A stretch of DNA of 64,000 nucleotides, taken from an uncultured bacterium (GTDB taxonomy: Bacteria > Bacillota_I > Bacilli_A > Acholeplasmatales > Anaeroplasmataceae). This document shows, one piece after another, positions 1,342 through 63,963 of this stretch. Made by a program: the position numbers and the translations under genes. The stretch lies in contig CASFCK010000005.1 in the NCBI GenBank assembly GCA_949293265.1, forward strand, positions 1 to 64,000, read 5' to 3'. A model generated the notes under the pieces. The model saw only the letters and a program-made list of their open reading frames with translations, was not told where the DNA came from and did not search any database. Position 1 is the first letter of the stretch. Each line of letters opens with the position of its first letter.

Positions 1342-3208
1342 AATAAGCCTCTATATAAATGATTAAAACTGATATATCTGCCGGATTAACTCCACTAATT
1401 CTTGTTGCTTGTCCAATAGTAGCAGGTTTTATTTTTTTCAACTTCTCACGGGCTTCTAAGGCAAGATTACCAACTTTATCATAATCGATATCTTGGGGGA
1501 TAATTTTATTTTCATAAATATGCATTTTCTCTGCTAAAGCTAAAGTTTTAGCTATATATCCTTCATATTTAATGCTGATTTCTATTTGTTCTAATACATC
1601 TTTATCTAATTCTAATAATTCAGGATATAGATTGTTTTTTGCACAAATATTTAAAATGTCATCATAATTTATATCTGGTCTTTTTAATAATGTATATATT
1701 GTTAATGATTCTTTAACACTAGCTATATTTTTAGTTATAAAATAAGCATTAATATGTTCAAACCTTATTTTATCTTCTTTAAACTTTAAGTAATATTTAT
1801 TAATATCGGCTTTTTTCTTTGTGAATCTTGCATATTGTTCTTCATCTATTAAACCATAATAATAGCCATATTCTCTTAATCTTAAATCCGCATTATCATG
1901 ACGCAATAATAAACGATATTCCGCTCTTGATGTTAATAAACGATATGGTTCATTAGTTCCTTTAGTGACAAGATCATCAATCATAACCCCTATATATGCT
2001 TCATCTCGCTTTAAAATTAAAGGTTTTTTGCCTAGAATAGAACTTGCAGCATTAATACCAGCTACTAAACCTTGTCCGGCAGCTTCTTCATAACCGGATG
2101 TTCCGTTAATTTGGCCAGCAGTATATAATCCGGCAATAATCTTAGTCTCTAATGTAGGATAAATGTTAAGTGGATTAATCGCATCATATTCAATTGCATA
2201 GGCATAGCGCTTAACTTGACAATTTTCTAAGCCTTTTAACATATGAATCATCTTATCTTGAACTTCGACTGACATTGAGGTAGAGAAACCTTGAATATAT
2301 ATCTCATCTAATTCTAAACTTTCAGGTTCAAAGAAAATTTGATGACGATCTTTATCCTTAAATCTAACAATTTTATCTTCTATTGAAGGACAATAACGGG
2401 GACCAATGCCTTCAGCTACCCCACCATACATAGCACTATCTGTTAAATGTTCTAAAATATAATTATGAAGCTTTTTATCAGTATAAGTTAAATAACATGG
2501 AACGTTAACATTTAAAAGTGAATTATAGCCAGGATCAAAACTAAAATGTCTTGTTATAGCATCACCTGGTTCTTCTTTAGTAACTGAAAAATCAATACTA
2601 TTAGTATATATTCTAGCTGGTGTTCCTGTTTTTAATCTTGCAATTTCAAACCCTAATTCCGCTAATTGCTTAGATATACCATAACTAGTTCTTTGGCTAT
2701 CAGGACCTTCGTTTTTAATTACCTTACCTCTTAAAATACGACTATTTAAATAAGTTCCGGTAGTTAAAATGACTTTTTTACCACATACTTTCTGTCCATT
2801 TTCTAGTATTACTCCTTCTACAGTACTACCATTTATGATCAAATTATCTACAATACCTTCTAATAAATCTAAATTTTTAGTATTTTCAAGATGGCGCTTC
2901 ATCTCTTTAACATATAACAATTTATCTTCTTGAAAACGCAAAGCCCATACTGCCGGACCTTTTGATGAGTTTAAAAGCTTAGTTTGAATTTGACACAAAT
3001 CCGCATTTTTACCCATGTATCCACCTAAGGCGTCTATTTCTCTTACTACTACACCTTTAGCTGGTCCTCCGATTGAAGGATTACAAGGCATAGAACCTAC
3101 CATATTTAAATTACCTGTGATTAAAATGGTTTTAAGTCCCATTTTAGCAGTAGCTAAACATGCTTCACATCCGGCATGTCCTCCACCTACTACAATAATA
3201 TCATACAT
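1331..3208 (-). CDS. mnmG: tRNA uridine-5-carboxymethylaminomethyl modification enzyme MnmG (GidA)
   Basis: MnmG, working with MnmE, uses FAD, a folate C1 donor and glycine to build the carboxymethylaminomethyl group on U34 of certain tRNAs. The 625-residue length is normal. The FAD dinucleotide-binding motif GGGHAGCEA lies at residues 8-16, a CNPSIGG segment near 42-48, the PRYCPSIEDK motif near 270, and a GQINGTSGYEEAAGQG signature near 370. The Shine-Dalgarno GAGGTGT precedes the ATG. The partner MnmE is not in the window. The downstream rsmG overlaps this gene. Confidence 0.97.
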   Translation of the reverse strand: MYDIIVVGGGHAGCEACLATAKMGLKTILITGNLNMVGSMPCNPSIGGPAKGVVVREIDALGGYMGKNADLCQIQTKLLNSSKGPAVWALRFQEDKLLYVKEMKRHLENTKNLDLLEGIVDNLIINGSTVEGVILENGQKVCGKKVILTTGTYLNSRILRGKVIKNEGPDSQRTSYGISKQLAELGFEIARLKTGTPARIYTNSIDFSVTKEEPGDAITRHFSFDPGYNSLLNVNVPCYLTYTDKKLHNYILEHLTDSAMYGGVAEGIGPRYCPSIEDKIVRFKDKDRHQIFFEPESLELDEIYIQGFSTSMSVEVQDKMIHMLKGLENCQVKRYAYAIEYDAINPLNIYPTLETKIIAGLYTAGQINGTSGYEEAAGQGLVAGINAASSILGKKPLILKRDEAYIGVMIDDLVTKGTNEPYRLLTSRAEYRLLLRHDNADLRLREYGYYYGLIDEEQYARFTKKKADINKYYLKFKEDKIRFEHINAYFITKNIASVKESLTIYTLLKRPDINYDDILNICAKNNLYPELLELDKDVLEQIEISIKYEGYIAKTLALAEKMHIYENKIIPQDIDYDKVGNLALEAREKLKKIKPATIGQATRISGVNPADISVLIIYIEAYYGR

Positions 3209-3220
3209 AATGACACCTCA

Positions 3221-4246
3221 TTAATTTGTTAAATAAAGGAAAATTAATTTCATAGTCTCTTTTATAGCATCTAAATGGGTTCTTTCCATACCATGACTTG
3301 CTGCTACACCAGGACCAATTAAAGCTCCTTTACAATCTATACCAGCATGCCATGCAGCCCCAACATCTGAGCCATAAAAAGGAAAAATATCTACCACATA
3401 ATTAATTTTATTATCTTTAGCTAATTTGATTAATTTAGTCGTAAGCTCATAACTATAAGGCCCACCACTATCTTTAGCCGCAATGCTACAAGCATATTCA
3501 TTACCAGCTAAATCTAAGCCAATACAACCCATATCACATGTTACAAATTCACTAATCTCCTTAGCTAAAGCACTAGCTCCATGTCCTACTTCTTCTTGAT
3601 GGACAAAATAAAAATAAGTCATAAAATTAGGTTTTATTTCTTTTTCTTTGAATTCTTTTAAAACGCCTAATAATAAACATACTGAAGCTTTATCATCTAT
3701 AAAACGTGATTTTAAAAAACCAGATTTTGTTATAGTCGTTTTAGGATCAATAAAAATATAATCACCATTATTAATACCTAGTTTTAAAACATCATCTTTA
3801 TTTTTAACAACTTCATCAATTCTAACGACCAAATGATCAAAATCTCTTGGCATACTTTTACTATCAGGATAAACATGTACAGAAGGACTTTTAGATAAAA
3901 TAGTTCCTGTGTAAACACCATTAAATCTAGTCTTAATTTTACAATATTCACCATCTAGTGTAGGTGCTAATGGTCCACCTACATTAGTAATATTAAGTGT
4001 TCCATCACTATTTATGCTTCTTACCATTAAGCCTAATGTATCGGCATGGGCAGATGTAGCAACAACCTTAGTATTATCTTTACCTTCTACTTTTACTAAA
4101 ATTGTATTTTTATGTAATATTTCATAAGAATATCCTATTTCCTTTAGTATTTCACCAATTACATTATTAACTTCTCCATCATAGCCACTAGGTGAATCAG
4201 TTAAAAAAACTTTAGGTATAATTTCTTTAATGAATTTATCTTGCAT
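3221..4246 (-). CDS. M42 family metallopeptidase (aminopeptidase/endoglucanase-like)
   Basis: This 341-residue protein belongs to the M42 dinuclear metallo-aminopeptidases (glutamyl aminopeptidase/FrvX/YsdC group), cytosolic enzymes that trim peptides and assemble as large tetrahedral complexes. Expected ligands are visible: His67 and Asp69 in SAHAD, Asp184 in FIDDKAS, the catalytic pair Glu218-Glu219 in HQEEVGHG, Asp245 in LDLAG, and His318 in ASHGMERTH. Start MQDKF follows an AGGAGTAA Shine-Dalgarno. A hairpin separates it from glnS upstream, and mnmG follows 12 bases after its stop. With the peptide transporter at 44-52 kb it could help use imported peptides (inference). Substrate specificity cannot be read from the sequence. 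Confidence 0.9.
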   Translation of the reverse strand: MQDKFIKEIIPKVFLTDSPSGYDGEVNNVIGEILKEIGYSYEILHKNTILVKVEGKDNTKVVATSAHADTLGLMVRSINSDGTLNITNVGGPLAPTLDGEYCKIKTRFNGVYTGTILSKSPSVHVYPDSKSMPRDFDHLVVRIDEVVKNKDDVLKLGINNGDYIFIDPKTTITKSGFLKSRFIDDKASVCLLLGVLKEFKEKEIKPNFMTYFYFVHQEEVGHGASALAKEISEFVTCDMGCIGLDLAGNEYACSIAAKDSGGPYSYELTTKLIKLAKDNKINYVVDIFPFYGSDVGAAWHAGIDCKGALIGPGVAASHGMERTHLDAIKETMKLIFLYLTN

Positions 4247-60146: not shown

Positions 60147-61484
60147 CTAATCCATTTTATCTGTAAAACTTGAAAAGGCGCCATTAAATAGTAAAGGAAG
60201 ACCATTTTCCTCAGTCGTTTGACCACTTCTATTTTTAGAAATAATCAAATCAGCCTCACCTTTTCTAGCTGATTGTTTATTATATACTTCTTCACGATAC
60301 AAAAACATAACTATATCTGCATCTTGTTCAATTGTACCTGAATCACGCAAATCGGCCATCATCGGTCTTTTATCATCACGCTTTTCAACTGCTCTTGATA
60401 ATTGTGATAAAGCTAAAACCGGAATATTTAATTCTAAAGCCATCAATTTTAAAGCTCGAGAAATTCTAGACACATCTTCAACAATTGATCTAGATTGACC
60501 TTCGGAATTAATTAATTGTAAATAGTCAATAACGACAAAATCTAAACCATTTGATTCTTTTAATTGTCTAGCTACTGATTTAATTTTAGCTACGGTAATA
60601 CTAGATTCATCACTAAAATAAATATTTAAATTATTTAGTCTAGTACAAGCGCTTTGAATTCTCACCCATTCAGGCTCCTTTAAAAAACCAGTTTTAATGC
60701 TTTTTAAACTTATTTTACTGTCACATGCGATCATTCTTTCTACTAATTGTTCTTTAGGCATCTCTAAAGAAAAAATAGCACATGTGGCTTTCCCACCTTT
60801 ATTTTTAGTAGCTATATTAGTAGCTAGATTTAGAGCCATGGCTGATTTCCCCATAGCCGGACGAGCAGCTAAAATTATTAATTGACCTGGTTGAAAACCT
60901 AATGTATATTTATCAAGCCCTTGAAAACCTGTCTTTAAGCCAATAACATTTTCCTTTTGTTTTGACATTATTTCGGTTTTTTCTAATACTACACCAGTAA
61001 CATCTTTGATGTTTGTAAATGAACCTATTTTTCTTCTTTTAGAAAGTTCAAATACACTTTTTTCCATGTCTTCAAGAAAATCATCAGTTTTGGCTTTAGG
61101 ATTATAACCTTGTTCAGTCAAAACTTGTAATAATTTTAAAGCGTCTCTTCTTAAACTAGCTTCCTCAATAAATTTTATATAACTATCAGCATTATAAGGA
61201 GAATATGCTTCATCAGCTAAAGAAGATAAATATTCATATCCCCCCGCTTTTGTTAAACTATTTTTATTTTCTAAATCGCTAATTAAGGTTGTAATATCAA
61301 TACTAACTTGCCTACGATATAAATCAACCATTGAACTGAAAATTATTTTATTACGAGGATCATAAAAATCTTTTTCAAACAACCTACCTTCAACTTTACT
61401 TAAAATAGTATAGTCTAATAAAATAGATCCTAGTAATCCAATTTCAGCCTCAACATTTTGAGGAATAATAATATTATTTTGCAT
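60147..61484 (-). CDS. dnaB: Replicative DNA helicase DnaB
   Basis: DnaB (DnaC in Bacillus) is the hexameric helicase that unwinds DNA at the fork. The 445-residue protein has the N-terminal helical domain (~1-120), Walker A ARPAMGKSAMA (~210), Walker B VVIDYLQLI (~315), ALSQLSRAVEKR and ADLRDSGTIEQDAD (~380). It lies one base after the gdpP-rplI gene, the conserved Firmicute order. Confidence 0.97.
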   Translation of the reverse strand: MQNNIIIPQNVEAEIGLLGSILLDYTILSKVEGRLFEKDFYDPRNKIIFSSMVDLYRRQVSIDITTLISDLENKNSLTKAGGYEYLSSLADEAYSPYNADSYIKFIEEASLRRDALKLLQVLTEQGYNPKAKTDDFLEDMEKSVFELSKRRKIGSFTNIKDVTGVVLEKTEIMSKQKENVIGLKTGFQGLDKYTLGFQPGQLIILAARPAMGKSAMALNLATNIATKNKGGKATCAIFSLEMPKEQLVERMIACDSKISLKSIKTGFLKEPEWVRIQSACTRLNNLNIYFSDESSITVAKIKSVARQLKESNGLDFVVIDYLQLINSEGQSRSIVEDVSRISRALKLMALELNIPVLALSQLSRAVEKRDDKRPMMADLRDSGTIEQDADIVMFLYREEVYNKQSARKGEADLIISKNRSGQTTEENGLPLLFNGAFSSFTDKMD

Positions 61485-61485
61485 T

Positions 61486-61929
61486 TTAACAACCTACAAC
61501 ATTAATTTGGAAGGTAGCTTGAATGTCTTTATCTAAATTAATAACCCCTTGATAAATGCCAATAGCATTAATATCGGCAGGTAATTCTAATTTTCTTTTA
61601 TCTAAATGAATACCATTTTGAGCCTCGAATTCATCAACTACTTGTTTTGATGTGACGTGGCCAAATAATTTGCCATCTGTACCTTGTTTAATGTAGATAG
61701 TAACAGTTTTATTTTCAATTTCTGATTTTAATTGTAACAATAAATTTCTTCTATTTTCTCTATCTATTTCTTCTTGACGTTTATTTTCTTCTAATTTTTT
61801 TAAGTTTTGATCATTTAAGATAATAGCATCTTTATTATTAATTAAGAAATTACCATAACCATTATTAACTTCAATAATATCATCTTTCTTGCCTTTTCCT
61901 TTAACATCTTTTAATAAAATAACCTTCAT
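61486..61929 (-). CDS. rplI: Ribosomal protein L9 (internal start within the gdpP frame)
   Basis: Reading from the in-frame ATG at 61929 gives 147 residues, the standard length of L9. It opens MKVILLKDVKGKGKK, with LFGHVTSKQ and LDKRKLELP in the C-terminal domain, and the long connecting helix between them. L9 binds 23S rRNA at the base of the L1 stalk. GGAGAAGG (61940-61933) lies 3 bases before the ATG, a plausible though tight Shine-Dalgarno. That suggests free L9 is made in addition to the fusion. Whether translation really starts here cannot be decided from sequence alone. Confidence 0.75.
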   Translation of the reverse strand: MKVILLKDVKGKGKKDDIIEVNNGYGNFLINNKDAIILNDQNLKKLEENKRQEEIDRENRRNLLLQLKSEIENKTVTIYIKQGTDGKLFGHVTSKQVVDEFEAQNGIHLDKRKLELPADINAIGIYQGVINLDKDIQATFQINVVGC

Positions 61930-63915
61930 TGTGCCTTCTCCTTCTACAACTTCATAATCTCTTTTAATAATACTTACTAACCATTCTTTAATTTCTGATA
62001 ATGATTTGTCATTTATTTGGCAAGCCGCAGCTTGTAGGTGTCCACCCCCACCCATTTCTTCCATAATGATTTGTACATTAACATTCTCTAAACTACGAGC
62101 TGAAATTCCAACTTCATCATTACTTAAATGCGCGATAGTAAAACTTGCCTCTACACCTTCTATCGTCAATAAACGATCGGAAATTTTAGCTAAAATAGTT
62201 CTGTCATCAAACTTTTTATCGATAACGACAATCGCAAATCTATTTAAAACGATATCAGTATTAACAATAGCTTCTGAAATTATTTTTTCAGATTCATACG
62301 AATCTCTTAAAATCAATTTAACTTTAACCATATCAGCTCCATATTCTTTTAAAGTTGAAGCAACTTCAAAAGTCCTATATCCAGTTCGATATGTAAAGTA
62401 ATTTGTATCTACAACCATACCAGCAAGCATAATTGTAGCTTCTAATGCTGTGATCGTCGTATTAGCAGTAAACATAAACATCTCAGTTATTAATTCTACT
62501 GTAGATGAAGAATATGTCTCTACATAACTCATTTCAACATTTGAGAAATCAACATCTCCAACACGATGGTGGTCTATTACTGCCACATGATTTGCGTTAT
62601 TAATAAGTGATTTAAACATTACTAAATTAGGAGACTGGGTATCACAAACTAATAATAATGTATTAGAGTTTAAATAACTTAAAGCTCTATCTTCATCAAT
62701 TATAATATCACTATATTCAGCACTATCTTCAATTAACATGTTATAAGCCTTCTTAGCTGTAACATCTAATTTATCTTGATTTAAAGCGATTTTTGCGTTT
62801 GTGTTAAAAGTTTTAATCAACCTGTACGCACCTAGTATAGCTCCTAAGGCATCACAATCTGCCATGTCATGCGCCATAATTAAAACTCTTTCATATGTCT
62901 CTGCTAACTCCCTTAAAGAGTTAGTTTGCATTCTAACTGCAACTAAAGTGTTTTTCTCTAAAGCATTAACTTGACCGCCAACATATTGAATCTTAGCACC
63001 TTGAATATTAACAACGGCTTGATCGCCACCTCTTTTTTCAGCTAATTCAACCGCATTTAAAGCTAAATCACCAACTTCATTTGGTTTTAGATCATAAGAA
63101 GCTATACCGATACTAATTGTTGTTTTTAATCTACTAGCTTTAGATACAGTTCTAATCTTATCTAAAATAGAGAACTTATCTTCTACCATTTTTAATAATT
63201 CTTCTCTATCAGTTATAACCAAAATTCGATCATCATCTAAAATTTGAAAAAAACAATTATAAGAACTAGCCCAATTAGCTATTTCACCTAGTATTTGACC
63301 ACTTATATTTGTTTTATCTTGTAAGTCGTAACGTCGTAGGCTTTCTTCTAAATTATCTACTATAATTATTCCAATCGCAATATTTCGATTAATATACCTA
63401 GTTTTTAATTCTGTTTCGCGAGTTATGTCAAAGAAATATAAAATTCTATTTTCTTTTTTTGCATTAAATTCATAAGTTGAATTATTATCATTTAAAACAA
63501 AATTTGTTTCATCACTAAGTAAAAACCTTTGTAAATCAGGACTAATATCATTTACAGCCACATCTTTTAACGATTTTTTTAAACATTTTTGAGCGTAATC
63601 ATTAAACCACTTGATATTGAAATCCTTATCATAAATCATAATACCAATTGGCAAAGTTTGAAAAGCCATGTCTCCTGCCGCATTAATATGATATGTAGTA
63701 TCTGCCCATACTTCAATTTGCGTTTTCAATTTTTTTATTTCTTTTATTTTCTTTTGATATAAATAGATAAAGATAATTACAACCGCAATAAAAATAGTTA
63801 ATATCGCACAAATTAAATAAATGGTTTTAACCAAATTATTCTTCTCTAAACTATAAAAATACCAAAATATACTTGACCCACCTAAAGTCAATATTGCTAA
63901 TAAAACAAAATACAT
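61486..63915 (-). CDS. GdpP c-di-AMP phosphodiesterase fused in frame to ribosomal protein L9
   Basis: One 809-codon frame encodes two whole proteins. Residues 1-662 are GdpP: two membrane helices (about 3-20 and 30-53), a degenerate PAS-like region (~70-165), a degenerate GGDEF domain (~170-300), then a DHH-DHHA1 phosphodiesterase with ADCDALGA (~353), VIDHHRVG (~448) and GGGGHLQAAA (~623). Residues 663-809 are a complete L9. No stop codon lies between them. B. subtilis GdpP is ~659 residues, so neither part is truncated. The usual order gdpP-rplI-dnaB is kept. The product is either one membrane-bound fusion, or GdpP-L9 plus free L9 from the internal start at 61929. Confidence 0.9.
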   Translation of the reverse strand: MYFVLLAILTLGGSSIFWYFYSLEKNNLVKTIYLICAILTIFIAVVIIFIYLYQKKIKEIKKLKTQIEVWADTTYHINAAGDMAFQTLPIGIMIYDKDFNIKWFNDYAQKCLKKSLKDVAVNDISPDLQRFLLSDETNFVLNDNNSTYEFNAKKENRILYFFDITRETELKTRYINRNIAIGIIIVDNLEESLRRYDLQDKTNISGQILGEIANWASSYNCFFQILDDDRILVITDREELLKMVEDKFSILDKIRTVSKASRLKTTISIGIASYDLKPNEVGDLALNAVELAEKRGGDQAVVNIQGAKIQYVGGQVNALEKNTLVAVRMQTNSLRELAETYERVLIMAHDMADCDALGAILGAYRLIKTFNTNAKIALNQDKLDVTAKKAYNMLIEDSAEYSDIIIDEDRALSYLNSNTLLLVCDTQSPNLVMFKSLINNANHVAVIDHHRVGDVDFSNVEMSYVETYSSSTVELITEMFMFTANTTITALEATIMLAGMVVDTNYFTYRTGYRTFEVASTLKEYGADMVKVKLILRDSYESEKIISEAIVNTDIVLNRFAIVVIDKKFDDRTILAKISDRLLTIEGVEASFTIAHLSNDEVGISARSLENVNVQIIMEEMGGGGHLQAAACQINDKSLSEIKEWLVSIIKRDYEVVEGEGTMKVILLKDVKGKGKKDDIIEVNNGYGNFLINNKDAIILNDQNLKKLEENKRQEEIDRENRRNLLLQLKSEIENKTVTIYIKQGTDGKLFGHVTSKQVVDEFEAQNGIHLDKRKLELPADINAIGIYQGVINLDKDIQATFQINVVGC

Positions 63916-63934
63916 CGGTTAATCACCTCGCTTA

Positions 63935-63963
63935 ATTATATCAATTTCTACTATCTTTTACAA
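63935..63963 (-). promoter_or_regulatory. Promoter of the gdpP-rplI-dnaB-prfA-prmC-tsaC operon
   Basis: On the minus strand TTGTAA (63963-63958) and TATAAT (63940-63935) are 17 bases apart, 19 bases before the ATG, with GAGGTGA as Shine-Dalgarno. The seven genes to 56542 are spaced 0-12 bases apart. Confidence 0.75.

Follow-up and report, generated by a model that had tools for sequence, protein, structure and literature searches.

How does a bacterium obtain free ribosomal protein L9 when its L9 coding sequence forms the tail of a gene for a membrane signalling enzyme? The question is raised by one end of the 64,000-nucleotide stretch of uncultured Anaeroplasmataceae DNA analyzed here (the window), in which positions 61486-63915 of the minus strand form one unbroken frame of 809 amino acids, with no stop codon at the boundary between the c-di-AMP phosphodiesterase GdpP and L9. 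No further L9 was found in the 1.59-Mb assembly to which the window belongs, leaving the fused copy as the sole L9. We consider it highly probable, from comparison of related sequences, that this ancient in-frame gdpP-rplI fusion is a two-product gene, encoding both a membrane GdpP-L9 protein and, via internal initiation, free L9. Initiation at the gdpP start would lead, through readthrough of the vanished stop and because the frame is open, to a membrane c-di-AMP phosphodiesterase of 809 residues that ends in an L9 tail, and initiation at the old rplI start, with its retained Shine-Dalgarno sequence, would yield a free 147-residue L9 for 50S subunits. This second initiation very probably takes place, judging from the conservation described below.

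Such a gene would be an unusual case of two genes being fused without loss of either product, the old start signal surviving in-frame, and of a ribosomal protein gene that was captured by the gene of a signalling enzyme and has persisted throughout a deep clade that includes the phytoplasmas. One source describes Cas11b and similar bacterial and archaeal genes in which, as proposed here, one frame gives two products and the shorter is started internally (PMC11899642); unlike the Cas11b-type genes described there, the shorter product of the fusion would be a whole ribosomal protein, its gene having been captured by an upstream membrane enzyme. Full-text literature searches found neither a published account of a GdpP-L9 fusion nor a report of a shorter, free L9 product from the fused gene.

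The fused gene and its parts

An earlier note, made from the letters of the window, had read the frame as a full-length GdpP (662 residues) joined to a full-length L9 (147 residues), with a Shine-Dalgarno sequence just before the L9 methionine. Both observations are borne out (Table 1). The frame is uninterrupted, and Pfam analysis identified PAS_GdpP, GGDEF_GdpP, DHH (343-500) and DHHA1 (567-646), all over cut-off, together with Ribosomal_L9_N at residues 663-708 (profile 1-47 of 47) and Ribosomal_L9_C reaching near its profile end. The motif GGAGAAGG lies at 61941-61934, with a spacing of 8 nt from its GGAG to the L9 ATG (61929). Two N-terminal helices are present in the AlphaFold model of the fusion, and the metal-binding motifs (HxxxDxD, D, DHH and GGGGH; H349, D353, D355, D425, D448-H450 and G623-H626) are invariant in 14/14 fusions, sequence features by which the GdpP part is predicted to be a membrane c-di-AMP phosphodiesterase. 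The L9 part matches TIGR00158 over positions 1-146 of 148 (108.8 bits) and carries Gly13, Gly24 and other conserved L9 residues; with complete N and C domains and these usual residues, it would be classed as a bL9.

The linker between DHHA1 and L9, in which residues 658-660 have a pLDDT below 50 in the AlphaFold model, is probably the former rplI leader. Downstream, the ATG of the dnaB-like gene begins one base past the L9 stop. At the other end of the gene, a TATAAT at window positions 63935-63940 (minus strand), immediately 5' of the gdpP Shine-Dalgarno sequence, is a possible candidate -10 element for the gdpP-L9-dnaB genes.

The GdpP-L9 architecture is already catalogued by NCBI. The window fusion scores 756.5 bits (cut-off 707; model positions 48-833 of 838) against NCBIfam NF011110/PRK14538 (putative bifunctional signaling protein/50S ribosomal protein L9, equivalog), a model of the same architecture whose cut-off misses some true fusions (those of G063 and G070 score below it). 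The name of the model states the fusion alone and is silent on internal initiation; the junction signals are the result added here. Annotating the fusion alone would hide the free L9, and a two-product gene would explain a clade without any separately annotated rplI.

Table 1. Features of the gdpP-rplI locus in the window, and tandem-L9 loci in other genomes (locus coordinates).
Feature	Position	Strand	Content or basis
GdpP part, 662 codons (1-662)	61930..63915	-	N-terminal membrane helices, PAS, degenerate GGDEF, DHH, DHHA1
L9 (bL9) part, 147 codons (663-809), N and C domains complete	61489..61929	-	Frame and Pfam
TAA stop, common to the fusion and the proposed free L9	61486..61488	-	
L9 ATG, proposed second translation start	61929-61927	-	
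Internal Shine-Dalgarno sequence AAGGAGAAGG	61934..61943	-	Duplex energy -9.3 kcal/mol; doubles as linker codons
Linker VVEGEGT, DHHA1 to L9	61930..61950	-	
gdpP Shine-Dalgarno sequence GAGGTGAT, 5' of the ATG at 63915	63922..63929	-	Direct sequence reading
Replicative DNA helicase gene (dnaB-like)	60147..61484	-	Translation; usual rplI neighbour
Tandem-L9 locus L083 (G011)	420-2903 and 2971-3411		
Tandem-L9 loci L108 (G341), L148 (G315), L149 (G321) and L229			

Start signals at the junction

Junctions were compared in 130 fused genomes from 60 genera, among them 126 single-L9 fused genes from 59 genera. The first L9 codon of these 126 is ATG in 121, GTG in four and TTG in one, and is thus restricted to initiation codons, though an internal Val or Leu could be written otherwise. 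The Shine-Dalgarno energy, calculated as the pairing of 17 nt (-20 to -4) with the 16S tail, averages -9.7 kcal/mol before the L9 start of the single-L9 fusions (all at or below -5.5), which is comparable to free or separate L9 genes (mean -9.2 kcal/mol), and the other in-frame ATGs of the fused genes (n = 2098) have a mean of -1.6 kcal/mol, with 14% at or below -4. A search of the window's assembly did not find the 16S 3' end, hence relatives were examined, and the standard anti-Shine-Dalgarno end was present in 8 of the 12 searched.

It could be argued that these signals are an unmaintained leftover of the ancestral rplI start, kept by coding constraint alone, and the synonymous null is itself strong (about -7.0 kcal/mol) because the linker is rich in Gly and Glu codons. 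The observed sites are nevertheless far stronger than random synonymous choice would give: resampling of the last seven residues before L9 yielded -7.04 kcal/mol (sd 0.16), and 55/59 genera beat their own synonymous null (Wilcoxon p 3e-10), a comparison of related genomes in which counts overstate independence and which the per-genus test corrects only partly. For the window's own gene the motif (-9.3 kcal/mol) was matched by 18% of synonymous resamples and is not significant, and the case for an internal start is one that the family makes, not the window gene alone. Across the fusions the Shine-Dalgarno motif occupies all three codon registers and therefore encodes different residues (GEG, GDG, EE, GG, etc.), and the linker itself varies in its residues (EGEGT, GDGK, EEKP, GGTEI, NTP). 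Selection on the nucleotide signal itself would be the natural explanation of the conservation at the junction, and for the family as a whole both the internal start codon and the Shine-Dalgarno sequence appear to be conserved beyond coding constraint. The register shifts, the exclusive use of ATG, GTG and TTG at codon 1 and the fact that the signals have decayed in each of the two lineages with a second L9 (see below) also speak against a leftover, which we regard as quite unlikely.

Free L9 might alternatively be released from the fusion protein by proteolysis in the linker, a short segment whose low-confidence prediction is what a disordered stretch would give. Proteolysis has no need for ATG, GTG or TTG at codon 1, and conservation falls on the nucleotide signal and the start codon, not on the linker residues, making this route improbable compared with internal initiation. 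Higher expression of the L9 part, visible as codon bias, was also considered and rejected, as the use of C-ending Phe, Tyr, Ile and Asn codons showed no clear difference between the GdpP and L9 parts (p 0.08).

In phytoplasmas the ATG is retained in all junctions read and the Shine-Dalgarno sequences are weaker (mean -5.9 kcal/mol). Five phytoplasma loci (L190, L220, L255, L263 and L265) are single-L9 fusions in which hardly any Shine-Dalgarno pairing (about -1 kcal/mol) precedes the internal ATG. The weak phytoplasma sites are perhaps due to AT-biased reduction. Deleting L9, a protein that helps to maintain reading-frame fidelity, has little growth cost in laboratory conditions (PMC4399890), so partial loss of the signal would be tolerable. 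The L9 of Candidatus Phytoplasma mali (L192) is without an equivalent of Gly24 (VTPIYANF).

Genomes with a second, free L9

Five genomes of two lineages have a free L9 gene immediately 3' of the fusion, namely G011 and G341 (genus g5), G315 and G321 (genus g82) and, grouping with g82, the named record L229. These duplications, the evidence from which comes from the two lineages only, are natural experiments that separate the ribosomal from the GdpP-attached role of L9. The Shine-Dalgarno sequence of the fused copy is gone in all five (-0.4 kcal/mol in both G011 and G341, +0.5 in G315, -2.4 in both G321 and L229), and the fused copies of the g82 lineage have lost the start codon too (ACT in G315, AAG in G321 and L229). 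Gly24, which we take to sit in the rRNA-binding N domain of bL9, is present in 126/126 single fused and 31/31 separate L9s and is retained in the free partners of all five tandem fusions; in the five fused copies it is replaced without exception (N and N in g5; E, E and H among the g82 lineage). This suggests that a separate L9 gene arose later by duplication in two lineages and that the fused copy, with a free L9 beside it, would then have seen its internal start and its N-domain signature decay. Import of the free copies from outside was rejected, since the rows nearest to the g5 pair are fused L9s from genus g5 itself, in a weakly resolved tree whose placement was read for that pair only. 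Production of free L9 by internal initiation, one of the outcomes envisaged in the earlier note, is strongly supported by the conserved start signals and by their decay beside a free L9.

The fused L9 is full length in all five genomes despite the free copy. Between G011 and G341 the dN/dS ratio is 0.12 for the fused L9, 0.16 for GdpP and 0.14 for the free L9, and between G321 and L229 the corresponding values are 0.34, 0.16 and 0.16. This persistence of the fused L9, like the absence of a stop between the domains, would also fit a gene from which the fusion protein alone is made, with ribosomes using membrane-tethered L9 or none, an arrangement coupling c-di-AMP turnover to ribosomes. An internal start codon and Shine-Dalgarno sequence kept beyond coding needs do not fit such a gene, and neither does the loss of Gly24 from those fused copies that have a free L9 beside them. 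About one L9 is needed per ribosome, and a membrane enzyme, being of low abundance, could hardly supply it. We therefore see little prospect that the fusion protein is the only product. The earlier note's suggestion that a membrane-tethered L9 may tie ribosomes physically to c-di-AMP turnover finds no support: where a free copy exists, Gly24 is lost from the fused one, so that selection does not appear to be preserving the ability of the fused form to bind ribosomes, and ribosome tethering through the L9 tail is disfavoured.

In the tandem lineages the fused L9 domain has been retained although it has no obvious role in the ribosome. Because Gly24 and the start signals have been lost there, yet the domain remains full length under purifying selection, the GdpP-attached L9 could, as a tentative suggestion that we hold at less than even chances, be a selected accessory domain distinct from ribosomal L9, which may regulate or stabilise GdpP.

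Distribution and origin of the fusion

A search of 60 relatives spanning the genus, family and order of the window organism found the L9 N domain in 59, all of them fused in a frame some 808-845 codons long; an extra free L9 besides the fusion occurs in one of the 59. In a second order (that of G091) nearly all genomes are fused and short frames lie mostly at contig edges, and the fusion is likewise present in families f9 and f19 and in 29 genomes of the phytoplasma genus, two of whose genomes (G411, G413) have short frames. Fused genomes usually hold one L9 only, within the fusion. Named fused records include Anaeroplasma, Acholeplasmataceae, Haploplasma modicum and Izemoplasmatales, together with the phytoplasmas Onion yellows phytoplasma, Candidatus Phytoplasma mali and Candidatus Phytoplasma australiense. 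The fusion is therefore no peculiarity of one genome, as it had seemed in the earlier note, being clade-wide and of an architecture named by NCBI; the same fused length, which that note had proposed to look for in related genomes, recurs in 59/59 L9-bearing relatives (808-845 aa), and the separate genes in close relatives that would have weighed against it were not found. The suspicion that an assembly or sequencing error deleted a stop, to which an assembly of 55 contigs might give rise, is refuted and of negligible probability, as the same fused length and identical architecture recur in these relatives, in other orders and in well upwards of 100 further genomes, some of them assembled as a single contig and some belonging to named phytoplasmas.

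Two separate genes, expected by the earlier note in most Firmicutes, are present in Bacillus, Lactobacillus, Listeria and Turicibacter, and also in Haloplasmataceae and Lachnospiraceae. The separate pairs of Bacillus, Lactobacillus, Listeria and their relatives match the fusion in gene order and domains and have an rplI Shine-Dalgarno sequence of similar strength (mean -9.0 kcal/mol), but their gdpP has its own stop, with a gap of -23 to +63 nt to rplI, and two independent proteins result. In Heyndrickxia, Bacillus and Paenibacillaceae gdpP and rplI overlap by 4 nt in different frames, unlike the single-frame fusion.

Our phylogenetic analysis of GdpP gave two changes between the fused and separate states, one of which is an artefact of L229 being counted twice (fused and free L9), so that one change is left after correction. 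When more separate families were added, the single intruder among the fused genes was L303, which has 48% of columns filled, joins another long branch and was flagged by the program. Repeated independent fusions were rejected, given that the fused genes group in the GdpP tree and that L303 is a likely artefact. In G061, of the sister family f7, exactly one in-frame TAA separates gdpP from rplI (SEG-TAA-AAA-ATG), an arrangement from which one codon change would yield a fusion; this supports the loss of the gdpP stop proposed earlier. A single ancient loss is the simplest reading, and would place the event, most simply once, in the ancestor of the Acholeplasmatales/Izemoplasmatales-type clade.

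Three genomes depart from the usual content. The 97%-complete G133 (genus g82) gave no clear L9 and no match to GdpP-L9, reflecting either an assembly gap or a real loss, and two of its genus-mates carry two L9s. G365, a genome with 6% contamination, has a second, separate and strongly scoring L9 (contig C172:661-795), which lies on a short contig and is probably foreign. G406, of the phytoplasma genus, has two apparently full fused genes (L262 and L283; contig C1:328029 and 454421) with 874-codon frames, approximately 126 kb apart on opposite strands, which are either a duplication or an assembly artefact.
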